In this document: positions 9,240 to 20,434 of the stretch, one piece after another | Layout: each line of letters begins with the position of its first letter | Position numbering within the stretch: position 1 is the stretch's first letter | NCBI GenBank assembly: GCA_019118925.1 | Contig: DWYC01000087.1 | Span: 87,905 to 151,904 of the forward strand | Length of the DNA: 64,000 nucleotides | From: Candidatus Flavonifractor intestinipullorum | GTDB taxonomy: Bacteria; Bacillota; Clostridia; Oscillospirales; Oscillospiraceae | Direction: 5' to 3' | Notes under the pieces: model-generated | Told to the model about the DNA's origin: nothing | What the model saw: only the letters and a program-made list of their open reading frames with translations | Database searches by the model: none | Translations under genes and position numbers: made by a program

Positions 9240-9263
9240 CGCGGGCGGGGAAAAAGAAACAGA

Positions 9264-9303
9264 GACGGAGCGCCGGATGGAATATCCGGCGCTCCGTCTT
9301 TTG
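9264..9303 (+). terminator. Rho-independent terminator after the HxlR gene
   Basis: GACGGAGCGCCGGAT-GGAAT-ATCCGGCGCTCCGTC-TTTT. Confidence 0.9.
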
Positions 9304-9339: not shown

Positions 9340-10572
9340 TCAAATACTCACAATGTACCAGGAGCGGCCATCTTTCACGCCATAGAGGTACATGCTCTGA
9401 TCCACGCGGTTGGAGCCGTCGGCGGACTCAAGGGTGATCTCCAGCTCCACCTCGGTCACGGCGTCGGCGTTGAAGCCGGTGGCCCCCTCTGAGCGGAGGG
9501 ACTCCACCAGGTCCTGGACCTGGGCCTTGTCGTACTCCTCCCGGGAGACCACTTCGTAGGAGTACGTCCAGTCCTCTCCCAGGTAGTCGTCCAGCTGGTA
9601 GATGGCGCTCTGGAGCTGGTCGCTCAGATAGGCCAGGGCCTCCCGCTCGGTGGCGTAGCCGTCCCAGGCGGCCTCTTCCAGGGCGGCCGCCTGAACGGGC
9701 TCGGGGAAGAGGTTGAAAATGGCCTCGGCGTCGCCGGTGAAGCTGGCCTTCACATAGGCGTCCAGGGCCTTGTTCAGGCTCCGCCCCCCGAAGAGGAAGA
9801 AGGCGAGGGCGAGGATGACCGCCACAGCGGCGACAATGGCCAGAATGCCGATGAGGCGGTGCTTGCCCGGCTTTTTCCCGCCGCTGTGGGCGGAGCCCGC
9901 CGCCTGATAGGGGGGTGGAGGCGGCGGAGGCGGCGCGGAAGGGCCGTTCCTGGGCGGAGTGGGGGCGGCGGAGGCGGCCTGCGGAACCCGGGCGCCGCAG
10001 CTGCCGCAGAAGAGGGCGCCCTCCCGCAGCTTGGCGCCGCACTGGCGGCAGTAGAGGGGCGCGCCGCCGGAGGAGGACTCCGGAGCGGGCGGCGGCGGGG
10101 GTGCAGAGGGCCCGGCCTCGGGAGCGGGCGGCTCCGGCCAGGGGGACTTGGGGGCCTCCTGGGCCTGGCCGGGCCAGGGGGCGGAGCTCTCCTCCGGCCA
10201 TGCGGGGGTCAGAAGCTCGGTGGGCGCCTGGTCGGCGGGGGCGGTGACGCCGATCTCAAAGACCAGGCGGGTAGAACCGATGACGGCCTCATCCCCGGAG
10301 AGGAGCTCCACCGGCTCCTCCATGCGCGCGCCGTTGACCTCCGTGCCGTTGGTGGCGCTCAGATTTTCCAGCCAGACGCCGCCGTCCCGGCAGAAGAGAA
10401 CGGCGTGGGTGCGGCTGACCTTGGGGTCGTGGAGGGTCAGGTGAACGGCGCTGCTGTCGCGGCCGATGCGGAAGGGGAACTCCTTGACCTGGACGGTGTG
10501 GGGCGTTCCATCCACCGTGTAGTGGATGACGGCCAAAATATCCGCTCCGGCGGGGGTGTAATCTCTGTCCAT
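9340..10572 (-). CDS. FHA-domain protein: N-terminal FHA, linker, Zn-ribbon, TM, extracellular C-terminal domain
   Basis: FRIGRDSSAVHLTLHDPKVSRTHAVLFCRDGGVWLENLSATNGTEVNG (FHA); YCRQCGAKLREGALFCGSCGARV (Zn-ribbon); LIGILAIVAAVAVILALAFFLF (TM). Confidence 0.9.
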   Translation of the reverse strand: MDRDYTPAGADILAVIHYTVDGTPHTVQVKEFPFRIGRDSSAVHLTLHDPKVSRTHAVLFCRDGGVWLENLSATNGTEVNGARMEEPVELLSGDEAVIGSTRLVFEIGVTAPADQAPTELLTPAWPEESSAPWPGQAQEAPKSPWPEPPAPEAGPSAPPPPPAPESSSGGAPLYCRQCGAKLREGALFCGSCGARVPQAASAAPTPPRNGPSAPPPPPPPPYQAAGSAHSGGKKPGKHRLIGILAIVAAVAVILALAFFLFGGRSLNKALDAYVKASFTGDAEAIFNLFPEPVQAAALEEAAWDGYATEREALAYLSDQLQSAIYQLDDYLGEDWTYSYEVVSREEYDKAQVQDLVESLRSEGATGFNADAVTEVELEITLESADGSNRVDQSMYLYGVKDGRSWYIVSI

Positions 10573-10590
10573 AATCTCACCTCATCGTGC

Positions 10591-12555
10591 TTAAGAAGTG
10601 GGGCCCGCGGCGTAGGGGAGGGCCAGATACTCGGAAAGGGCGGAAAACTCCGGATAGACGGCGGCGTACTCCTCCCGGACGGCGGGGGAGATGGGGATGG
10701 CGCCGCTGCGGTGGCGGATGTGGAAGTAGTCCTGCGCCGCGTCGCTGGAGAAGAACTCCAGGAGGGCGGTGGCGGCCCGCTCCTCATCTCCGCCCGAGTC
10801 GGTCACGCTCCACAGTGTGGCGCAGGTATAGGCGGCCTGGCCGCAGGCGGGGAACTGGACCTGGTAGAGGCCGGGCATGGCCTCCTGAATGGCGGGGTAG
10901 TCGGCGCTGGAGCCCAGGTAGAGCAGGACCTCCCCCGACAGAAAATCCTCCAGGGCGGAGGGGGCGGCATAGTCCTCTACCTCCGGTCCGTAGAGAGCGG
11001 TGAACAGCGCCCCGCAGGCGGGGGAGAGGGCCAGAGTGGAACCCGCCGCTTCGCACGCCCCGGCCAGGGCGGACACGTCGTCTGAACTGCCGACGCTGCC
11101 CAGGGAGGTGTTGACGTAGAGAAGGGGGAGGGCGAGCCCCGTGGGGTACTGGCGCTCGCCCTCCAGGGGAGCGGCGGCGGCCGGGTCGGTTTGAGCGAGG
11201 GCCTCCAGCGGACCGTCCAGCCCGGCGGCGTTGGGGAGGGCCGCGCCGTCCAGACCGGTGGACTCGTAGAGGTCGGGGCCCGCTCCGTCCACGCTCTCCC
11301 CCAGACGGCGGGCATACTCTGCGGCGGGAATTCCCTCCACCGAGACCGTGACGCCGGTGTACTCCTGGGTAAAGCGCTCAATAATGGCCTGAAGGGCCTC
11401 CTCCTTGGCCGTGTCCAGCGCTTCTTCCCCGGTGGAGCGGTACCAGAGGGTCAGATCGGCCTGGGGGAGCTGGCGGCTGTGCCACAACAGGGCAAAGGTC
11501 CCGAAGGCGGCGGCCAGCACCAGCAGGGAGGCGCAGATGCCCAGCGTTCGTCGGCGTTTTCGGCGCCGGCGGGCGGCCTCCAGAGGCACGGCCTTTTTCT
11601 GCGCCGTGAGGACCGCCTGAAACTCCTCAACCCGCTGATAGCGGAAACGGGGGTCCAGGGCCATGGCGCGCAGGATGGCCACGCTCACATGTTCCGGGAT
11701 GTCGGCGCGCAGGGCGGAGGGAGAGACCAGCTCGTCCTGAATTTTCCGGTCGGTGGACTCGGGGGGCTTCTGGCCCGTGAGCGCGTAGTAGAGGGTGCCG
11801 CCGAGGGCATAGATGTCGGTCCAGGGGCCCTGGCGGTTGACCCGCTCGTACTGCTCCGGGGGGGCGAAACCGGGCTTGACCACGATGGTGAGAGGACTGC
11901 CCTGGTCGGAGGCGAAGCGGGCCGCGCCGAAATCGATGAGCTTGACCGCCCCGTTCCGGCAGAGGAAGATGTTGTCCGGGCTCACGTCCCGGTGGAGAAT
12001 GTTCTGAGCGTGCAGGGCGCTCAGAGCGGCGCACACGTCCTGGGCCAGCTCCAGGCAGCGCTCCCAGGGGAGGGGCGCGCCCGACTGCTGGAGGAACTTG
12101 CTGAGCGTCTGCCCGTCCAGGAACTCCATGACGATGTAGGCGGTATTGTTGGCCTCAAAAAAATCGTAGACGTTGACAATGTTGGGGTGGGTATTGAAGC
12201 GGGCCAGGTTGCGGGCCTCCTCCAGAAAGCGTTCCTTGCCGTAGCGGAACTCCTCCTCCCGTTTGGAGGCCACCAGCATGACCTCGGCCTGGCCGGGCAG
12301 ACGGTTGACCAGACCGCTGGGATAGTACTCCTTTACGGCCATAACGGTCTCCAGCTTCTGATCCCACGCCTGATAGGTGATGCCGAAACCGCCCAGACCC
12401 AGCATCCGGCCGATTAGGTAGCGCCCGGCGATCTCCGTGCCGGGGGTGAGGCAGTAGGCCTCGGCCGTGGCGTCCCCCTCGCTGTAGCCGCAGTAGGGAC
12501 ACACGCCGTAGTCGGCCTCATATTCCTGAAAGCAGTTGGAACAGCGAATCTGCAT
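10591..12555 (-). CDS. Zn-ribbon eukaryotic-like Ser/Thr kinase with TM and a C-terminal extracellular solute-binding-protein-like domain
   Basis: MQIRCSNCFQEYEADYGVCPYCGY; YLIGRMLGLGGFGITYQAWD, HRDVSPDN, LIDFGAAR; TM LGICASLLVLAAAFGTFALLW; then ADLTLWYRSTGEEALDTAKEEALQAIIERFTQEYTGVTVSVEGIPAAEYARRL...ATALLEFFSSDAAQDYFHIRHRSGAIPIS. Confidence 0.9.
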   Translation of the reverse strand: MQIRCSNCFQEYEADYGVCPYCGYSEGDATAEAYCLTPGTEIAGRYLIGRMLGLGGFGITYQAWDQKLETVMAVKEYYPSGLVNRLPGQAEVMLVASKREEEFRYGKERFLEEARNLARFNTHPNIVNVYDFFEANNTAYIVMEFLDGQTLSKFLQQSGAPLPWERCLELAQDVCAALSALHAQNILHRDVSPDNIFLCRNGAVKLIDFGAARFASDQGSPLTIVVKPGFAPPEQYERVNRQGPWTDIYALGGTLYYALTGQKPPESTDRKIQDELVSPSALRADIPEHVSVAILRAMALDPRFRYQRVEEFQAVLTAQKKAVPLEAARRRRKRRRTLGICASLLVLAAAFGTFALLWHSRQLPQADLTLWYRSTGEEALDTAKEEALQAIIERFTQEYTGVTVSVEGIPAAEYARRLGESVDGAGPDLYESTGLDGAALPNAAGLDGPLEALAQTDPAAAAPLEGERQYPTGLALPLLYVNTSLGSVGSSDDVSALAGACEAAGSTLALSPACGALFTALYGPEVEDYAAPSALEDFLSGEVLLYLGSSADYPAIQEAMPGLYQVQFPACGQAAYTCATLWSVTDSGGDEERAATALLEFFSSDAAQDYFHIRHRSGAIPISPAVREEYAAVYPEFSALSEYLALPYAAGPTS

Positions 12556-12558
12556 CGG

Positions 12559-13461
12559 TTATTCCTCCGGGAGATAGCCGTCCCAGGAGAAGGACGGCCC
12601 GCACAGGGGCAGGAAGAGAAACTCGGCCCGGCCCAGGGAGATGCGGTCATAGGCGTGGAGCTCGGCGTGGTCAAAGAGAAGGGCGTCGTTGAGGTAGGTG
12701 AGCCCCTCCCCGGGCCCGGCCTGGAGGAAAAACTGGCGCTGGCGGGGCTCATAGATGAGGATGGCGTGGGGGGTACGGCTGACCGCGCTCTCCCGGGGGA
12801 GGACGATCTCCAGGCCCAGCGCCCGTCCGATGCGGTTTTTGCCCTCCCGGCAGGGAAAAGCCTGTCCCGCGTAGGCGCCCTTCAGGCACACCAGCCAGCC
12901 CACCGGGGGGAACGAGGGGGACGGCTGGGGTTCCTCCGGCTCCATGCCGGGGAAGGCCGGCACGTCGGCGGCGCCGGTGGCCGAGACCGCCTCCGCCAAA
13001 GTGGGTTCTTCCTCCTCGGGCGGGGCCTCCGGCTCCTGGGCCGGAAGCTCCTCCGCCCCAGGTTCCTCCTCAGGCGGGGCGGGAAGGTCCGCTTCCGGCG
13101 GGGCGGCCGGTTCCTCCGCAGCGGGCTCCGGCGAAGCGGCGGGGAAGAACTCCTCCACGGAGACGGGGGACGTCTCTTCCGTGGGCGGGGAGCGCACCGG
13201 CTCCGGCGGGGACTCCGGCTCGGGAGCGGGGGCGTCCCAGGCCGCTCCGGCGGAGCGGAGCGGGTCCTCCTCAGGGAAGAGGAGCTGGGTGGGGGCCAGC
13301 TCATCCACGGCAAAGGAGGGCGCGGCCGGCACCGGCTCCTCCGGCGCAGGGACGGCCGGGGCGGGGGCGGCGAGCTCCTGGCCCTCCGCCCCGCAGATGG
13401 GACAGACATCGAAGCGCTCGGCGTTGTAGAAATGTCCGTTTTGGCACTTTACTTTTCTCAT
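12559..13461 (-). CDS. Zn-ribbon protein with a long Pro/Glu/Ala-rich linker and C-terminal FHA domain
   Basis: MRKVKCQNGHFYNAERFDVCPICGAEG; FHA-like FPCREGKNRIGRALGLEIVLPRESAVSRTPHAILIYEPRQRQFFLQAGPGEGLTYLNDALLFD. Confidence 0.85.
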   Translation of the reverse strand: MRKVKCQNGHFYNAERFDVCPICGAEGQELAAPAPAVPAPEEPVPAAPSFAVDELAPTQLLFPEEDPLRSAGAAWDAPAPEPESPPEPVRSPPTEETSPVSVEEFFPAASPEPAAEEPAAPPEADLPAPPEEEPGAEELPAQEPEAPPEEEEPTLAEAVSATGAADVPAFPGMEPEEPQPSPSFPPVGWLVCLKGAYAGQAFPCREGKNRIGRALGLEIVLPRESAVSRTPHAILIYEPRQRQFFLQAGPGEGLTYLNDALLFDHAELHAYDRISLGRAEFLFLPLCGPSFSWDGYLPEE

Positions 13462-13481
13462 ATGGGACCTCCCTCGCTCTC

Positions 13482-14246
13482 TCAAAGTTGAATCAGAATA
13501 AAAGTGGTGTTGTCCAGCCTGCGCCGGCCGTTCCAGGCCAAAACGGCCTGAAGCAGCCCTTCGGCCCGCTCCTCCAGGGGGAGGGGAAGGGCCAGCAGGG
13601 CCCGTATGGTACCGGCGTCCAGGGCGCCGGGCAGACCGTCCGAGGTCAGAAGAAGCACGTCGCCGGGCCGGACAGCCAGAGGCCGCCGGGTCAGGTCGTA
13701 GAGGGTGAGCCCTCCCAGCCCCAGATAGCTCAGCAGGGCCCGGCTCCGGGGGAGCTGGCTCTGATAGAGGGCGGGGGAGATGCGCCCGGCCCGGAGCAGG
13801 GTGTCCAGCTCCAGGCGGTAATTGTGCTCCCGGGTGGCCGGGACCAGCTCCCCGCCCCGGAGCAGATAGAGCCGGCTGTCCCCCACCGAGGCCCAGTGGA
13901 GCCCCGCATCCGTCAAAAGGAGGGCCGTCAGGGTGGAGCCGCTGCCCCGCAGGGCCTCATCCAGCGCCACGGCCTGGTCGGCCTCCACCAGCGCCCGGCT
14001 CAGAAGGGAGACCGGCTCCATCCCCAGGGATTCCTCCGCCAGGGCCTGAAGGGCCTCCACCGCCCGGCGGCTGGCCTCCCCGCCGGAGGCGGAACCGCCC
14101 ATGCCGTCGCACACCGCGGCGAAGAGACGGCCCTCCCGCTCCAGAACATAGGCCCGGTCCTGCTGCTCCGCCCGGCCGCCGATGTGGGACCGGGCGGCCA
14201 GGACGGCGGCGGTGGAGCCGTCCCGCCGGATGGTCAAATAGCTCAT
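13482..14246 (-). CDS. PP2C-family Ser/Thr protein phosphatase
   Basis: AARSHIGGRAEQQDRAYV...FAAVCDGMGGSASGGEAS...LHWASVGDSRLYLLRGG...LLLTSDGL. Confidence 0.92.
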   Translation of the reverse strand: MSYLTIRRDGSTAAVLAARSHIGGRAEQQDRAYVLEREGRLFAAVCDGMGGSASGGEASRRAVEALQALAEESLGMEPVSLLSRALVEADQAVALDEALRGSGSTLTALLLTDAGLHWASVGDSRLYLLRGGELVPATREHNYRLELDTLLRAGRISPALYQSQLPRSRALLSYLGLGGLTLYDLTRRPLAVRPGDVLLLTSDGLPGALDAGTIRALLALPLPLEERAEGLLQAVLAWNGRRRLDNTTFILIQL

Positions 14247-14255
14247 AGCCCCCTC

Positions 14256-14981
14256 CTATAACAGCACCGCGATGGCGGAGTAGTTGTCCATCTCCCGGCC
14301 CCGGCCGCGCTCCTCCACAATGCCGGCCATCTGCGCCAGCCACTCCTCCGGGGAGGCGGCGCGCCTGAGCTGCGCGCCCATCTCCTTTTCTGTGATGAGC
14401 TCCCAAAAGCCGTCGCTGCACAGCAGAAATGCGTCGAACCGGCGGGCGTCCTGAACGGGGGAGAGTTCGAACCGGGGGGCGTCCCCCGCCACCCCCAGCA
14501 CCCGCAGCAGCCGGTTGCGGTCGGGGTGGCCCCGGATCTCCTTTTCCCGGATGTCCCCCGCCAGGGCCAGCATCTGGGGTACGCTGTGGTCCAACGTGCG
14601 CTCCTTCACCTTGCGCCGGGCGAAGGCGTAGACCCGGCTGTCCCCGATGTGGCCCCAGAGGGCCTGCCCGTCCCGGAGGGCCAGGGCGGCGGCGGTGGTC
14701 TTCATCTGGGCGAAGGCCCCGGCGGCGCGCTGCTCCCGGAGGATGTCCTCCTGAGCTTGGCGGAAGGCGGCGGCCATCTGCCCGGGCATGGGGCCGGGGA
14801 AGGGGGCGGAGTAGAGCGCCCCGAAGGCATCCACCGCCAGGCGGGAGGCCACATCCCCCTGGCCGTGCCCCCCCAGGCCGTCGGCCACCAGAAAGCACCA
14901 GGTATCCCCGGAGGAAAAGACCCCCAGGCTGTCCTCGTTGACCGGGCGGCTCCCCGGCCGGGTTAAGGTCGCATAGCGCAT
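14256..14981 (-). CDS. PP2C-family Ser/Thr protein phosphatase
   Basis: MRYATLTRPGSRPVNEDSLGVF...FLVADGLGGHGQGDVAS...LWGHIGDSRVYAF...LLCSDGFWELI. Confidence 0.94.
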   Translation of the reverse strand: MRYATLTRPGSRPVNEDSLGVFSSGDTWCFLVADGLGGHGQGDVASRLAVDAFGALYSAPFPGPMPGQMAAAFRQAQEDILREQRAAGAFAQMKTTAAALALRDGQALWGHIGDSRVYAFARRKVKERTLDHSVPQMLALAGDIREKEIRGHPDRNRLLRVLGVAGDAPRFELSPVQDARRFDAFLLCSDGFWELITEKEMGAQLRRAASPEEWLAQMAGIVEERGRGREMDNYSAIAVLL

Positions 14982-15013
14982 GGCATTCGCCTCCCTTGAA
15001 AAGAGCGGCCGGG

Positions 15014-18000
15014 TCATACAACCACCAGGCGGATCAGAATGTCGCCCAGGCTGTTCCCGGTGCTAAAGTTGTCCGAGTAAAACAGCGATACGGCAAACGT
15101 GTCGCTCCCGTTTGTGTCCAGGCTGGAGATATCCAGGTCCAGGGTGGTGTGGGTGCTGCCGTCCACATAGTAGGCCCCCAGCTGTTCCCAGGAGTAGCCG
15201 TCCAGCCGGGCCACCCAGAGGGTGAAGAGATCCTCCCCGGACTCCCCGCCGGTGTCGATGTCAATATCCAGCGTCACCGTATCTCCCTGGTGGATGCGCT
15301 CGCTGACGGCGTCGTTGCTGCCGATGGAGAGCGAGACAGGGATCACGATATTCTCCGGCTCCCGGGCCGAGACAGTGACGGTACACTGATCGCGGAAGGT
15401 CTGCCCGCCGGCGGTCACCGAGGCGGTGATGACGGCGGTGCCCTCCCCCTTGGCGGTCACCGTGCCGCCGGAGACGGCGGCGATATCGCTGTCGCTGCTG
15501 CTCCAAACGGTGGGGCCGATGTCGGTGGTGTTGGTAAAGGAGCTGGAGAAGCCCAGCATTTGGGACTCTCCCACGGAGAGGGCGAGTTCGCCCGGCTCAA
15601 TGGTCACATTGCCGATGATCTCCGGCACCTCCACCGTCACAGCGCAGGAGGCCGAGTAGGTCTGTCCGCCGTAGGTCATGGAGGCGGTGATGGTGGCGCT
15701 GCCGCCTCCCTCGGCAGTCACCCGGCCGGAAGAGCTGACGGAAGCCACGCCGGGGTCGCTGCTGCTCCAGGTGACGCGCTGTCCGGCGGGGGTGGTGTAG
15801 ACCGTCAGATCCTGAGAGAGGGGGACCTCCAGCGTCAGGGAGCTGTGGGAGAGGGTAATCCCCGCCGCCTCGCTCACCGTCACCCGGCACTCGTCGGAGT
15901 AGGTGGTGTTGCCGTAGGTCATGGAGGCGGTGATGGTGGCGCTGCCCGCCCCCACGGCGGTAACGGCGCCGGAGGAACTGACGGAAGCCACACCCGAGTC
16001 GCTGCTGCGCCAGGTGACGGAGGAATTGGTGGGAGAGGTGCGGGCGGTGAGGGTGCGCTGCTGCCCGGCCTCCAGGGCCAGCGTGTGATCGGAGAGGGTG
16101 AGAGAACCGCCGGGGGACACGCTCACATGGCAGGAGTCGGAGTAGAGGACCCCGTCGTAGGTCATGGAGGCGACAATGGTGGTGCTGCCGGTTCCCTCGG
16201 CGGTGACCCGGCCGGAGGAGCTGACGGAGGCCACGCTGGGGTCATCGCTGCGCCAGGTGATGGACTGCCCGGCGGGCGTGGCGTCCGCATCCAGCCAATA
16301 GGTCTCGCCCTCCAGGAGGGAAATTCCGCTGCTGCTGATGGTCAAGCCCGCCGTGGGGGTGACGGTGACGCTGCAGGCGGCATGGCAGCGGTAACTGCCG
16401 AAGACGGCGGTGACGGTGATGGTGGTCCGGCCCTCCCCCTGGGCGGTGACCGAGCCGCCGCCGGCGGTGGCCACCTGGCTGTCGGCGCTCTCCCAGAGGA
16501 TCTCGTCGGGCTCGTAGGGATAGCTGCCCACCGAGAGAATCTCCCACTCCCCCGGCGTGAGGGTGAGCGAGGTGTCGGAGAGGGAGATCTCCGGCTCGAC
16601 CACCCGGACGGTGCAATGGTCGGAGTAAACCTGGCCGTTATGGACGATGGAGGCGGTGATCGTGGCCTCGCCGTCCTGCTTGGGGGTGACCCAGCCGTAG
16701 GCGTTCACCTCGGCCACCGCGGGGTCGCTGCTCTGCCAGGAGATGGAGGCATTGCTGGGGTAGACTGCCGCATCTGTGCCCAGAGAGGTCCCGCTCCCCA
16801 GCGTCAGCAGGAGGGAGGACTCGGAGAGCACGACGCTGCCCACCTCGCCCTCGGCCACCGTCACGGCGCAGGCGGCGGAGTAGGTGCGCCCGCTCAGGGA
16901 GCACTGGGCGGTAATGGTGCAGGAGCCGGGGGACTGGGCGGTAATGACGCCGGAGGCGCTGACGCTGGCCACGGCGCTGTTGCTGCTGCTCCAGCGCACC
17001 GAGACCCCGGACGGGTAGCCGGAGGCGGAGAGGGTGGCCTGGGCCCCCGCCGAGAGGGTGAGGGTGGAGCGGTTCAGCCGCGGCGTATAGTCCTGCACGA
17101 CGACGGAGCAGGACACGGAGCTGCCCCCGCTGGAGACGGTAATGGTGGCCTGCCCGGCGCCTGCGGCGGTGACGGAGCCGTTGGAGACGCTGACCACACT
17201 GGAGTCGCTGGAGCTCCAGCGGTAGCTTCCGCCGCCCCCCGAGGCCCGCAGCGTCACGCGGTCCCCCACGTAGAGGCGCAGGGAGCTGCGGTTGAGCTGG
17301 AGCGGGGCGCTCTGGGGGGCCTGGGACTCCGAAGTCCCCTCTTCCGCAGGCTGCTCCAGGGCCGGGTCGGGGCCCTGGCTCACATAGAGAGTCACCGGCG
17401 TACCCGCGGAGAGGGGCTCTCCCATTTCCACGCTCTGGCGGATGACGATGCCCTGGGCCACGTCGGCGCTGTATTCGTATTCCACGCTCACCACCGCGCC
17501 CATCTGAGTCAGGAGGGCGGAGGCCTCCTCCAGGGCGTAATAGGCCACGTCGGGGGCGGTGCCCTCCGGCGTCTCGGCCTCCAGCGGGGCGCTGAGATAG
17601 AGTTCGACCTGGGTGTCCTCCTCCACCACGGCGCCGGCGTCCACACTCTGGTAGAGCACCAGGTCCACCGGAATGGTGTCCGAGCGCTTCCGCCCGCCGA
17701 TGACGGGGCGCAGAGACTGCTCGTCCAGCATCTCCTGGGCCACGCCCACCGAGTAGTTGACCACGCTGGGCACCCGGGTCATCCCCTCGCCCAGGGCGAT
17801 CTCGGTGTTCAGCTCGGCCTGCTCGCCCAGATGGCCGGTGAAGAGAAGGGCCAGAAGCACCAGGACCAGCGCACCCGCCGCCGGCACGGCGATCTTCAAC
17901 GCCAGCGGCCAGCGCAGCACGTCCAGGGGCTTGATATGTCCGCTGCGGCGCTTGACGCCGTCGGGGGAGGTGAGCTCCTGCCAGAAGGCCTCCGCCGAGG

Positions 18001-18934
18001 CCGTGCGGTCCTCCACCCGGACGTTCATGGCGTTTAAGATGGCGTTTTCCAGGTCCCGGTCCAATTTCGCGTGCCTGGAGGGGGGCTCGAGAATGTCTTT
18101 GCGCTTCTTCTCCAGCCAGGCCCGCCGCTCCAGCGCGTCGGGGGGCGTCACACCGGTGATCATCCGGTAGAGTACGGCGGCCAGGGCGTACACGTCGGTC
18201 CAGGGGCCCTGATCGCCCCGGCTGCGGTACTGCTCCTCGGGGGAGTAGCCGGGCTTGATGATGACGGTGAGACTCCGGCTGTGGGACGTGGTGGCGTAGC
18301 GGGCGGCGCCGAAGTCGATGAGTTTGACCCGGCCGTCCCGGGTGAGGAAAATATTGTCGGGGGCGATGTCCCGGTGGAGGATGCCCGCCTGGTGCACCGC
18401 CTCCAGGGAGCGGATCACCGGCTCCAACAGCGCAACCGCCCGCTCCGGCGGGAGCTTGCCCTCCCGCTCCAGACAGGCGGCCAGGGTCTCGCCCTCCAGA
18501 TACTCCATCACCAGATAGGCGGTCTGATTGGCCTCAAAGCTGTCAAATACCCGGACAATGCCCGGCTCGTCCTGGAACTTGACCAGGCGCTTGGCCTCGT
18601 CCACAAATTTGCCCAGGCCGTCGGCAAACTGCTGGGCCTTATTGCCCTGAAAGACCGTCACCCGGCTCTGTCCGGCCATGCGGGTGGCAAATTCACTGGG
18701 CAGGTACTCCTTGACGGCCACCGCCTGGCCCAGAACCTGGTCCCAGCCCAGATAGGTCACGCCGAAGCCGCCGTACCCCAGCACCCGGCCGATGAGATAC
18801 CGCCCGGCCAGAAGGGTGCCCGGGGCCATATGCAGCGGGCTCTCCGCCGGAGCGCCCGCCTCATAGCCGCAGTAGGGGCACACCTCGTATGTACTCTCAT
18901 ATTCGGCCATACAGCCCAAACACCTCTGGCGCAT
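15014..18934 (-). CDS. Zn-ribbon eukaryotic-like Ser/Thr kinase with TM, two PASTA-like domains and about 8 Big2 repeats
   Basis: MRQRCLGCMAEYESTYEVCPYCGYEAG; YLIGRVLGYGGFGVTYLGWD, HRDIAPDN, LIDFGAARYA; PASTA-like VPSVVNYSVGVAQEMLDEQSLRP...; repeated (W)xSSDxxVASVSSSGxVTAxGxGxATITASMTYxGxxYSxxCxVTV. Confidence 0.93.
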   Translation of the reverse strand: MRQRCLGCMAEYESTYEVCPYCGYEAGAPAESPLHMAPGTLLAGRYLIGRVLGYGGFGVTYLGWDQVLGQAVAVKEYLPSEFATRMAGQSRVTVFQGNKAQQFADGLGKFVDEAKRLVKFQDEPGIVRVFDSFEANQTAYLVMEYLEGETLAACLEREGKLPPERAVALLEPVIRSLEAVHQAGILHRDIAPDNIFLTRDGRVKLIDFGAARYATTSHSRSLTVIIKPGYSPEEQYRSRGDQGPWTDVYALAAVLYRMITGVTPPDALERRAWLEKKRKDILEPPSRHAKLDRDLENAILNAMNVRVEDRTASAEAFWQELTSPDGVKRRSGHIKPLDVLRWPLALKIAVPAAGALVLVLLALLFTGHLGEQAELNTEIALGEGMTRVPSVVNYSVGVAQEMLDEQSLRPVIGGRKRSDTIPVDLVLYQSVDAGAVVEEDTQVELYLSAPLEAETPEGTAPDVAYYALEEASALLTQMGAVVSVEYEYSADVAQGIVIRQSVEMGEPLSAGTPVTLYVSQGPDPALEQPAEEGTSESQAPQSAPLQLNRSSLRLYVGDRVTLRASGGGGSYRWSSSDSSVVSVSNGSVTAAGAGQATITVSSGGSSVSCSVVVQDYTPRLNRSTLTLSAGAQATLSASGYPSGVSVRWSSSNSAVASVSASGVITAQSPGSCTITAQCSLSGRTYSAACAVTVAEGEVGSVVLSESSLLLTLGSGTSLGTDAAVYPSNASISWQSSDPAVAEVNAYGWVTPKQDGEATITASIVHNGQVYSDHCTVRVVEPEISLSDTSLTLTPGEWEILSVGSYPYEPDEILWESADSQVATAGGGSVTAQGEGRTTITVTAVFGSYRCHAACSVTVTPTAGLTISSSGISLLEGETYWLDADATPAGQSITWRSDDPSVASVSSSGRVTAEGTGSTTIVASMTYDGVLYSDSCHVSVSPGGSLTLSDHTLALEAGQQRTLTARTSPTNSSVTWRSSDSGVASVSSSGAVTAVGAGSATITASMTYGNTTYSDECRVTVSEAAGITLSHSSLTLEVPLSQDLTVYTTPAGQRVTWSSSDPGVASVSSSGRVTAEGGGSATITASMTYGGQTYSASCAVTVEVPEIIGNVTIEPGELALSVGESQMLGFSSSFTNTTDIGPTVWSSSDSDIAAVSGGTVTAKGEGTAVITASVTAGGQTFRDQCTVTVSAREPENIVIPVSLSIGSNDAVSERIHQGDTVTLDIDIDTGGESGEDLFTLWVARLDGYSWEQLGAYYVDGSTHTTLDLDISSLDTNGSDTFAVSLFYSDNFSTGNSLGDILIRLVVV
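15350..17310 (-). repeat. Tandem Big2-coding repeat array (about 8 units of about 240 bp; units around 15670-16330 most alike at DNA level)
   Basis: GTAGGTCATGGAGGCGGTGATGGTGGCGCTGCC recurs about 240 bp apart (near 15673 and 15913) with a variant near 16158; CCGGA(A/G)GA(G/A)CTGACGGA(A/G)GCCAC recurs in phase. Confidence 0.85.
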
Positions 18935-19059
18935 CGTCTCTCCCTCTCTGCCGGGATATGCCCGGCGCATAAAATACCGCTCTCATTATAGCGCGGCACG
19001 CCCGTTCCTTGCATTAACACAGGTTAATCACGGCAAAAACAGGGCGTTTAAACAGACAT

Positions 19060-19088
19060 CCCCCCCGGCAGTGCCGGGAGGGATGGAA
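19060..19088 (-). terminator. Probable terminator after the CNNM/CorC gene
   Basis: Reverse strand TCCCTCCCGGCACTGCCGGGGGGGATGTCTGTTT. Confidence 0.5.
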
Positions 19089-19093
19089 GGAAA

Positions 19094-20434
19094 TCAGTCC
19101 TCCTGGCCGGAGGGTTCCTCCGGAGGGAGCTTGGAGACCAGGGACCACTCCACCCGGCGCTCCTTCCAGGACTCCACCTGGATATGCAGGCCGTGAATGT
19201 CCAGCACCAGAAGATCGTCCCCGTCGGGAATCACGGAAATCTGGGCGGTCACCAGACCGCTGAGGGTCTCGGCCTCCTCGTCGTCGGGGAAGGAGATCTC
19301 CAGCGCGTCGGCCAGGTCGTCCAGCTCCGCCGAGCCGGCCACCCGCCACAGATTTTCGCCCAGGCGGATGATCTGCTGTTCGTCCTGGGGGTCGAATTCG
19401 TCGTAGATTTTGCCCACCAGCTCCTCCAGCAGATCCTCCATGGTCACCAGGCCTGCGGTGCCGCCGTACTCGTCCACCACGATGGCCAGATGGACTTTCC
19501 GGCTCTGAAGGTCCCGGAAGAGGGCCCCCGCCGGCACCGACTCGGGCACAAAATAGGCCGGCCGAAGCAGCTCGCGCAGGGGGAGAGGCCGCTCCCGGCG
19601 GGCATTGAGGAAGTAATCCCGGCTGGAGAGGATGCCGATGACGTCGTCCGCGTCCTCGTCATAGACGGGGAAGCGGGACAGGCCGCTCTCCTGGATGGTG
19701 CGCAGGATTTCCTCATCCTCGTCGCCCACCCAGAGCATAACCACATCGGTGCGGTGAATCATCACGTCCTCTGCGGTCAGGTCGCTGAAGTCGAATACAT
19801 TTTCAATGAACTGTTTCTCACTGGAGTCAATGGCCCCTCGTTCCTCTCCGATGTCCACCATCATGCGGATTCCCTCTTCGGAGACGTCGTCCTCCTCCTG
19901 ATTGGGGTCGATGTGGAACAGCCGGAGCATCCCGTTGGTAGAGGCGGTGAGCAGCCAGATCACCGGGCGCATCAGCACCGAGAGGATGTAGACAATGTTG
20001 CAGGAAAAGCGGGCCACAGCCTCGCTTTTCTTCATGGCCACCCGCTTGGGGACCAGTTCGCCAAAGACCAGCGTGAAGTAGGCCAGCAGCAGCGTGATGG
20101 CAATCAGAGAGAAGGTGTGCACCGCCGCCACGGCCCCCCCGCTCAGGGCGAACCGCTCCACCAGCCAGCCCGAAAGGCGCCCGGCCAGATTGTCGGCGGC
20201 AAAGGCCGAACCGAGCAGGTTGGCCAGGGTAATGCCGATCTGAATGGTGGAGAGAAATCCGGTGGAGTTTTCCACAATGGAGAGCAGCCGGGCCGATTTT
20301 TTATCGCCGTCCTCAGCCTGACGGCGGATTACCGCCTCATTCAGAGAGATCACGGCGATCTCCGTGGCGGCAAAAAAGGCGTTGAGCGCAATGAGTATGA
20401 CCTGAAGAAGCAGCTGAGGCCATAATGGGGGCAA
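19094..20434 (-). CDS. CNNM/CorC (HlyC-type) membrane protein with CBS domains
   Basis: [23 protein letters not shown]..., [54 protein letters not shown]. Confidence 0.95.

Follow-up and report, generated by a model that had tools for sequence, protein, structure and literature searches.

The window examined here is a stretch of 64,000 nucleotides from Candidatus Flavonifractor intestinipullorum (assembly GCA_019118925.1, contig DWYC01000087.1, positions 87,905 to 151,904 of the forward strand), and positions given without another label refer to it. At 9340–18934 it holds six adjoining open reading frames (ORFs), all on the minus strand and predicted from sequence, which encode two Ser/Thr kinases, two PP2C phosphatases and two FHA proteins. 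In most relatives with readable neighbours the corresponding module adjoins a type VII secretion system (T7SS); for that reason we read the cluster, with fair rather than high confidence, as the phospho-switch of a secretion machine, unlinked here from the T7SS and probably acting in trans.

The six-gene cluster and its predicted proteins

The order of transcription is gene 1 (PASTA kinase), PP2C1, PP2C2, Zn-FHA, kinase with solute-binding domain (SBP), and FHA-Zn-ribbon-transmembrane (TM) protein. The features of the locus are as follows:

19057–19085, minus strand: terminator that ends the upstream CorC-type gene and parts it from the cluster
18985–18990, minus strand: TATAAT, possible −10 element about 50 nt 5′ of the gene 1 start (sequence reading)
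15014–18934, minus strand: gene 1, Zn-ribbon (CxxC..CPYC), Ser/Thr kinase, TM segment, two PASTA domains and Big_2 repeats (Pfam)
14256–15017, minus strand: gene 2, PP2C phosphatase (PP2C1; PP2C_2, E = 9e-18)
13482–14246, minus strand: gene 3, second PP2C phosphatase (PP2C2; PP2C_2, E = 1e-13)
12559–13461, minus strand: gene 4, Zn-knuckle (CxxGH..CPxC), acidic/Pro linker and divergent FHA domain (SRxxHA; FHA, E = 0.003)
10591–12555, minus strand: gene 5, Zn-ribbon, Ser/Thr kinase, TM segment and extracellular SBP (Pfam and structure model)
9340–10572, minus strand: gene 6, canonical FHA domain (E = 2e-15), Zn-ribbon (Zn_Ribbon_1, E = 2e-7), TM segment and extracellular C-terminal domain
9263–9299, minus strand: intrinsic terminator of 16 pairs, 3′ of gene 6 (consensus match only)

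The ORFs and the flanking terminators bear out an earlier note on this DNA, which had described six contiguous minus-strand genes with short gaps. The junctions within the cluster range from a 4-nt overlap up to about 32 nt, varying with the choice of start codon. Gene 1 starts with the ATG at 18934, preceded by GGGAG, the probable start codon of PP2C1 lies at 14981, and the start of gene 4 was placed at 13461 by an alignment of 22 orthologues. The six genes probably form a single operon, transcribed as one unit between the two intrinsic terminators; a promoter scan upstream of gene 1 called no full promoter. Synteny with four congeners (L262, L265, L266 and L267) stops at about 19,119–19,250, where the CorC-type gene ends, and the cluster therefore occupies a variable site. 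At the site syntenic to the end of the CorC-type gene, the contig end of congener G893 holds an IS-like transposase fragment.

Both kinases have intact catalytic motifs (K/HRDxxPDN/DFGAA), also across orthologues, and positive stretches before the TM segments predict cytosolic kinase domains with the sensors outside, in agreement with the large extracellular parts proposed earlier. Gene 1 had been described as a Big2-kinase; Pkinase and Big_2 are indeed present, and two PASTA domains (E = 7e-19) had been missed. Its kinase-TM-PASTA architecture is that of PrkC/PknB/Stk1, and the protein is predicted to be a membrane kinase with an envelope-facing sensor. Compared with proteins of solved structure, however, both kinase domains matched PpkA of the type VI secretion system (T6SS) best, at 170 bits for gene 5 (PknB 128 bits) and 154 bits for gene 1 (PknB 118 bits), and PpkA also ranked first in a fold search with gene 5. 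As a control, the PrkC of the same genome had PknB as its best solved match (232 bits), and PpkA was not among its best 60. With the NCBIfam Stk1/PknB equivalog the window kinases scored 237 and 188 bits, under the 450-bit cut-off.

The extracellular part of gene 5 was modelled as a confident solute-binding fold of the maltose/oligosaccharide type (pLDDT 92). A sequence search of this domain against solved structures gave no match; the PDB fold search alone found relatives, the closest being GacH, MalE and other oligosaccharide- or dinucleotide-binding proteins at a TM-score of about 0.6–0.7. Judging from this model, the ligand is probably an oligosaccharide-like solute. The domain is fast-evolving, with just 19–43% identity to its orthologues, and hence the ligands probably differ between species.

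The PP2C motifs (NED/DGLGG/GDSR/SDG/DN) are intact in the phosphatases, and the metal-binding motifs of PP2C1 are invariant in a 13-member alignment. Zinc modules of the CxxC...CxxC type, credited to four of the six proteins in the earlier note, were found in genes 1, 5 and 6; gene 4 carries the variant CxxGH...CPxC, which is kept in most of its 22 orthologues. The FHA domain of gene 4 falls below the Pfam cut-off and is backed by the orthologue alignment. Its GR and SR residues are present, SRxxHA has one extra residue and the NGT motif is missing; from these residues, phosphothreonine binding is possible, not certain.

Gene 6 was considered as a member of the conserved module and rejected, as no FHA-fused orthologue was found in 150 genomes of the family; by this comparison it is a lineage-specific addition. 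Elsewhere in the same genome, contigs C47 and C2 each hold a paralogue of its C-terminal part. These copies (C47:7753–8421 and C2:4529–5200) comprise the Zn-ribbon, TM segment and C-terminal part of gene 6 without the FHA domain, and the one on C47 is interrupted by two in-frame stops. The network of two inputs, two erasers and two readers suggested earlier thus keeps its writer/eraser/reader logic and its two receptors, while one of its readers, gene 6, lies outside the conserved module.

A recurring module beside T7SS and Tad pilus genes

We scanned 84,980 species genomes with a PP2C1 alignment and obtained 80 loci. The PP2C1 relatives form two sets, one of ordinary PrpC proteins and the other a close group. 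Across gut Clostridia the close group shows the recurring order PP2C1-PP2C2-ZnFHA-kinase(SBP)-kinase(PASTA), with the PP2C2 orthologue right after PP2C1. The co-occurrence in relatives on which the earlier note had staked its six-gene system therefore holds for five of the six genes, with PP2C1-PP2C2-ZnFHA-kinase in fixed order, and fails for gene 6. The arrangement in the window differs from that of the relatives in that the PASTA/Big_2 kinase gene stands first and gene 6 last. Within the genus, a close PP2C1 occurs in 1/10 genomes searched, namely this one; genome G890 has a distant one (36%). A plasmid-borne module was considered and rejected, with PP2C2 unmatched at E ≤ 1e-15 in 72,556 plasmids. 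Two variants of the gene order were also seen. L183, L185, L192, L209, L224 and L231 have the longer arrangement PP2C1-ZnFHA-membrane FHA-kinase-PP2C2-ZnFHA-kinases and lack a T7SS in the vicinity. In G093 a small insert of two genes (L053 4858–5519), for an AbrB-like antitoxin and a PIN-like protein, separates the genes of the SBP and PASTA kinases.

De-duplication left 18 same-order loci with enough flank, the window excluded, and 52 loci of other arrangements, whose neighbourhoods were counted from six-frame searches. T7SS genes lay in the fetched flank of 12/18 same-order loci compared with 3/52 loci of other arrangements (Fisher p = 6e-7); the loci and genomes compared are related but were treated as independent, so that this and the following p-values overstate significance. 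A stricter count without L236 and L250, which have an atypical EssC with one FtsK domain, gave 10/18 versus 2/52 (p = 6e-6). EssC was above the TIGR03928 cut-off in five checked loci other than L236, where the gene is split and the match falls below the cut-off over part of the gene. At genome level, module and EssC co-occurred more often than expected (4/7 versus 25/386, p = 7e-4; 394 genomes of the order), and PP2C1 and EssC similarities were correlated across 16 genomes (Mantel r = 0.48, p = 0.0004).

The junctions between module and T7SS were of several types. DUF4176 stands directly before PP2C1 in L172, L197, G251 and the partial module of L174, a WXG100 gene before PP2C1 in G360, G455, L193, L180 and L236, and EssC downstream of the module in G093, L214 and L235; T7SS and module are divergent in L186. 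With at least four junction types, the link was gained or retained more than once.

Tad pilus genes were found in the flank of 2/18 same-order loci (G179 and L195), and neither T7SS nor Tad genes in 4/18 (G247, L212, G006 and G808). In L195 (100–9970) the phospho-module directly follows Tad pilus-type genes, with TadE and DUF5702 proteins present; a module after Tad-type genes (Flp/TadE/DUF5702) was seen in L195 and in L085/L143 of G179. The Tad-linked copies suggest that the module is portable between surface machines. No T6SS gene was seen among the examined genes next to the cluster or around the module in relatives. The earlier note saw no secretion or vWA gene beside the cluster, which holds for the window but not for its relatives; the output, left open in that note, is tied by those relatives to the T7SS and sometimes to Tad pili.

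The genome's own T7SS and the reading of the cluster

The assembly (2.2 Mb, 94 contigs, 81% complete) contains six kinase genes, five FHA matches and three PP2C_2 genes, two of the latter within the cluster. No EssC or WXG100 gene lies beside the cluster; the genome's own T7SS is on another contig (C21:95001–115000, L015; 1336–19773, minus strand), near dnaA and gyrAB. It comprises FHA406, EssC with an FHA domain, a LytTR regulator, YukD, five WXG100-type genes, DUF4176, a TPR kinase and a vWA protein, and no phosphatase was found in this locus. The TPR kinase carries DFN where DFG is expected, and in the FHA domain of EssC GK replaces GR, where the L172 EssC retains GR, S and NGT. A binning artefact joining the window contig (C60) and C21 is unlikely, as their tetranucleotide profiles correlate at 0.97. 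Contig C19 (L017; 7962–11744, minus strand) holds a third kinase/FHA pair, a 941-aa kinase and a 264-aa protein with a C-terminal FHA domain, without a phosphatase.

The T7SS of L172 is collinear gene for gene with that on C21, in the shared order EssC, LytTR, a protein of ~200 aa, YukD, a protein of ~115–140 aa, five WXG100-type genes, a protein of 300–356 aa and DUF4176. In L172 the module directly follows, starting at the place where the C21 locus has its TPR kinase, and its PP2C1 is ~59% identical to that of the window. The closest EssC found to that of this genome is also the one from L172 (43% over 1604 aa), the second being that of the module-linked G093. G247 shows the same split layout as here, with a T7SS including a TPR kinase on one contig and the module on another.

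The mechanism that we propose starts from the observed domains and intact active sites, the conserved module with its T7SS and Tad linkage in relatives, and the T7SS collinearity; we infer which proteins are phosphorylated, which ligands are bound, in which direction control runs and, for this organism, that it acts in trans. The SBP kinase (gene 5) would read an external solute, probably oligosaccharide-like, and the PASTA/Big_2 kinase (gene 1) the state of the cell wall or envelope. Signals at these two sensors would activate the kinases, leading to threonine phosphorylation on FHA partners and/or components of the machine. The phosphothreonines would recruit the Zn-FHA protein, and possibly also the FHA domain of EssC or FHA406, and the two PP2C enzymes would reset the mark. 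By this route the module would control in trans the C21 T7SS, which has FHA domains and a kinase, and no phosphatase.

Several observations, besides the overstated p-values, weigh against this switch for the T7SS. Module and T7SS are on different contigs in this genome, and the C21 T7SS has a kinase of its own. The congeners G893 and G888 have the same T7SS, in G888 including its TPR kinase, yet gave no PP2C1 match at E ≤ 1e-30. Both assemblies are fragmented (in G893 a contig break lies 0.6 kb away from the syntenic site, and the completeness of G888 is 81%), and the module is likely absent from both. This T7SS can thus do without the module, which is at most an accessory controller of it. 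Among the same-order modules, G247, G006, L212 and G808 have no T7SS in the flank, although G247 has one elsewhere. No EssC match was found in the Tad-linked G179, nor in G380 and G501, whose modules are of incomplete order. The module may thus be a general plug-in for envelope machines, not specific to the T7SS.

The strongest rival takes up this point and holds that the cluster is a portable envelope-sensing phospho-module with no dedicated machine, which here serves another surface function, for instance the Zn-ribbon-TM proteins related to gene 6. The Tad linkage in G179 and L195, the same-order copies standing alone in G006, G808 and L212, the looser relatives, which have membrane FHA proteins and lack a T7SS, the congeners with a T7SS and no module, and the lineage-specific gene 6 with its paralogues elsewhere in the genome all fit this view. 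It sits badly with the strong excess of T7SS over other arrangements, the collinear T7SS in this genome and the correlated similarities of PP2C1 and EssC, and we regard it as unlikely, if a serious contender.

A cell-wall growth or stress system of the PknB-GarA/PrkC type is suggested by the PASTA domains of gene 1 and by the kinase-phosphatase-FHA triad, and is quite improbable here. Cell-wall growth has its own system in this genome, since contig C69 carries a separate canonical PrkC/PrpC pair beside RsgA, and contig C14 (L018; 8527–11721, plus strand) encodes a fusion of an FHA domain with a RodA/FtsW protein and, after it, a penicillin-binding protein (PBP). Moreover, the cluster kinases match PpkA ahead of PknB and miss the Stk1/PknB equivalog cut-off, and the distribution of the module is patchy. 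The PknB/GarA cell-growth analogy drawn earlier is weak for the same C69 and C14 genes. The C14 pair itself has the appearance of a compact FhaB-RodA-PbpA-like cell-wall unit. A kinase-based anti-phage defence or conflict system is very improbable: the kinase domains do give hits to the PADLOC models PD-T4-6 and MAD6, but these span the generic kinase fold only (MAD6 192 bits versus a 460-bit equivalog cut-off), no nuclease, helicase or methylase adjoins the cluster, and the neighbouring genes in relatives are secretion genes.

Returning to the phospho-switch of the T7SS, a broader proposal can be put forward more tentatively. The module could be a widespread, unnamed regulatory cassette of gut Clostridia. 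Two receptor kinases, one of sugar type and one for the cell wall, would together license T7SS and Tad pili via Zn-ribbon FHA readers and paired PP2C erasers, and the cassette would be portable between machines and could work in trans. It would correspond, in Gram-positive bacteria, to the threonine phosphorylation pathway of the T6SS, with external signals that can be identified directly. The signals that induce T7SS in Gram-positive bacteria are largely unknown, and the module would tie secretion to solute and cell-wall receptor kinases. With secretion tied to an SBP receptor kinase, standard ligand-binding assays could identify the signal. Where a genome has an 'orphan' T7SS, the switch may lie at another locus.

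Comparison with known phospho-control systems

In Agrobacterium, Serratia and Pseudomonas, for example, the T6SS proteins PpkA/PppA/Fha switch a secretion machine by threonine phosphorylation (PMC3953482), and this proved the better lead of the two analogies in the earlier note. The cluster resembles that pathway in having a membrane Ser/Thr kinase, PP2C and FHA reader together, and PpkA as the closest solved kinase domain. It differs in lacking T6SS genes, in its Gram-positive-type host, in its two kinases and two phosphatases, and in its Zn-ribbons, SBP and PASTA/Big_2 sensors and divergent FHA domain.

Two further systems share single features with the cluster. In E. faecalis, induction of the T7SS under phage infection depends on the PASTA kinase IreK (PMC7790226), which likewise places a PASTA kinase upstream of a T7SS (T7SSb); IreK, however, is a housekeeping kinase that acts on transcription, whereas here a dedicated second kinase set stands beside PrkC. 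In the mycobacterial GlnH-GlnX-PknG-GarA pathway an SBP feeds a Ser/Thr kinase with FHA output (PMC6069109), and gene 5 similarly couples a solute-binding receptor to a Ser/Thr kinase. There, SBP, membrane protein and kinase are separate and GarA controls metabolism, whereas here SBP and kinase are fused and the fold is of the oligosaccharide type.

Phospho-control was also proposed, in 2024, for T7SSc, e, f and j, with the kinase TsxD, the PPM phosphatase TsxF and the FHA protein TsxJ (PMC11217815). These subtypes have in common with the cluster a membrane kinase, a PPM phosphatase and an FHA protein; the genes for this set sit inside their T7SS loci, and their EssC carries FHA domains. The module here, by contrast, is unlinked, has two PP2Cs and Zn-ribbon kinases with SBP/PASTA sensors, and lacks the DUF6382-FHA protein (TsxJ of T7SSe, f and j), DUF6382 having no match in any of the six cluster proteins. 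The text of that paper does not mention this architecture, and none of the terms PASTA, zinc, ribbon, solute and DUF4176 appears in it. Given that proposal, the self-contained undescribed system of the earlier note was too strong a claim. As the machine genes lie outside the locus and DUF6382-FHA is missing, we place the cluster neither in the T6SS pathway nor among the T7SSc–j regulators, although it would work in the manner of both, and regard it as a new version of secretion-system phospho-control. It suggests that Gram-positive machines have the kinase/phosphatase/FHA logic of the T6SS too, with a kinase domain related to the one used there.

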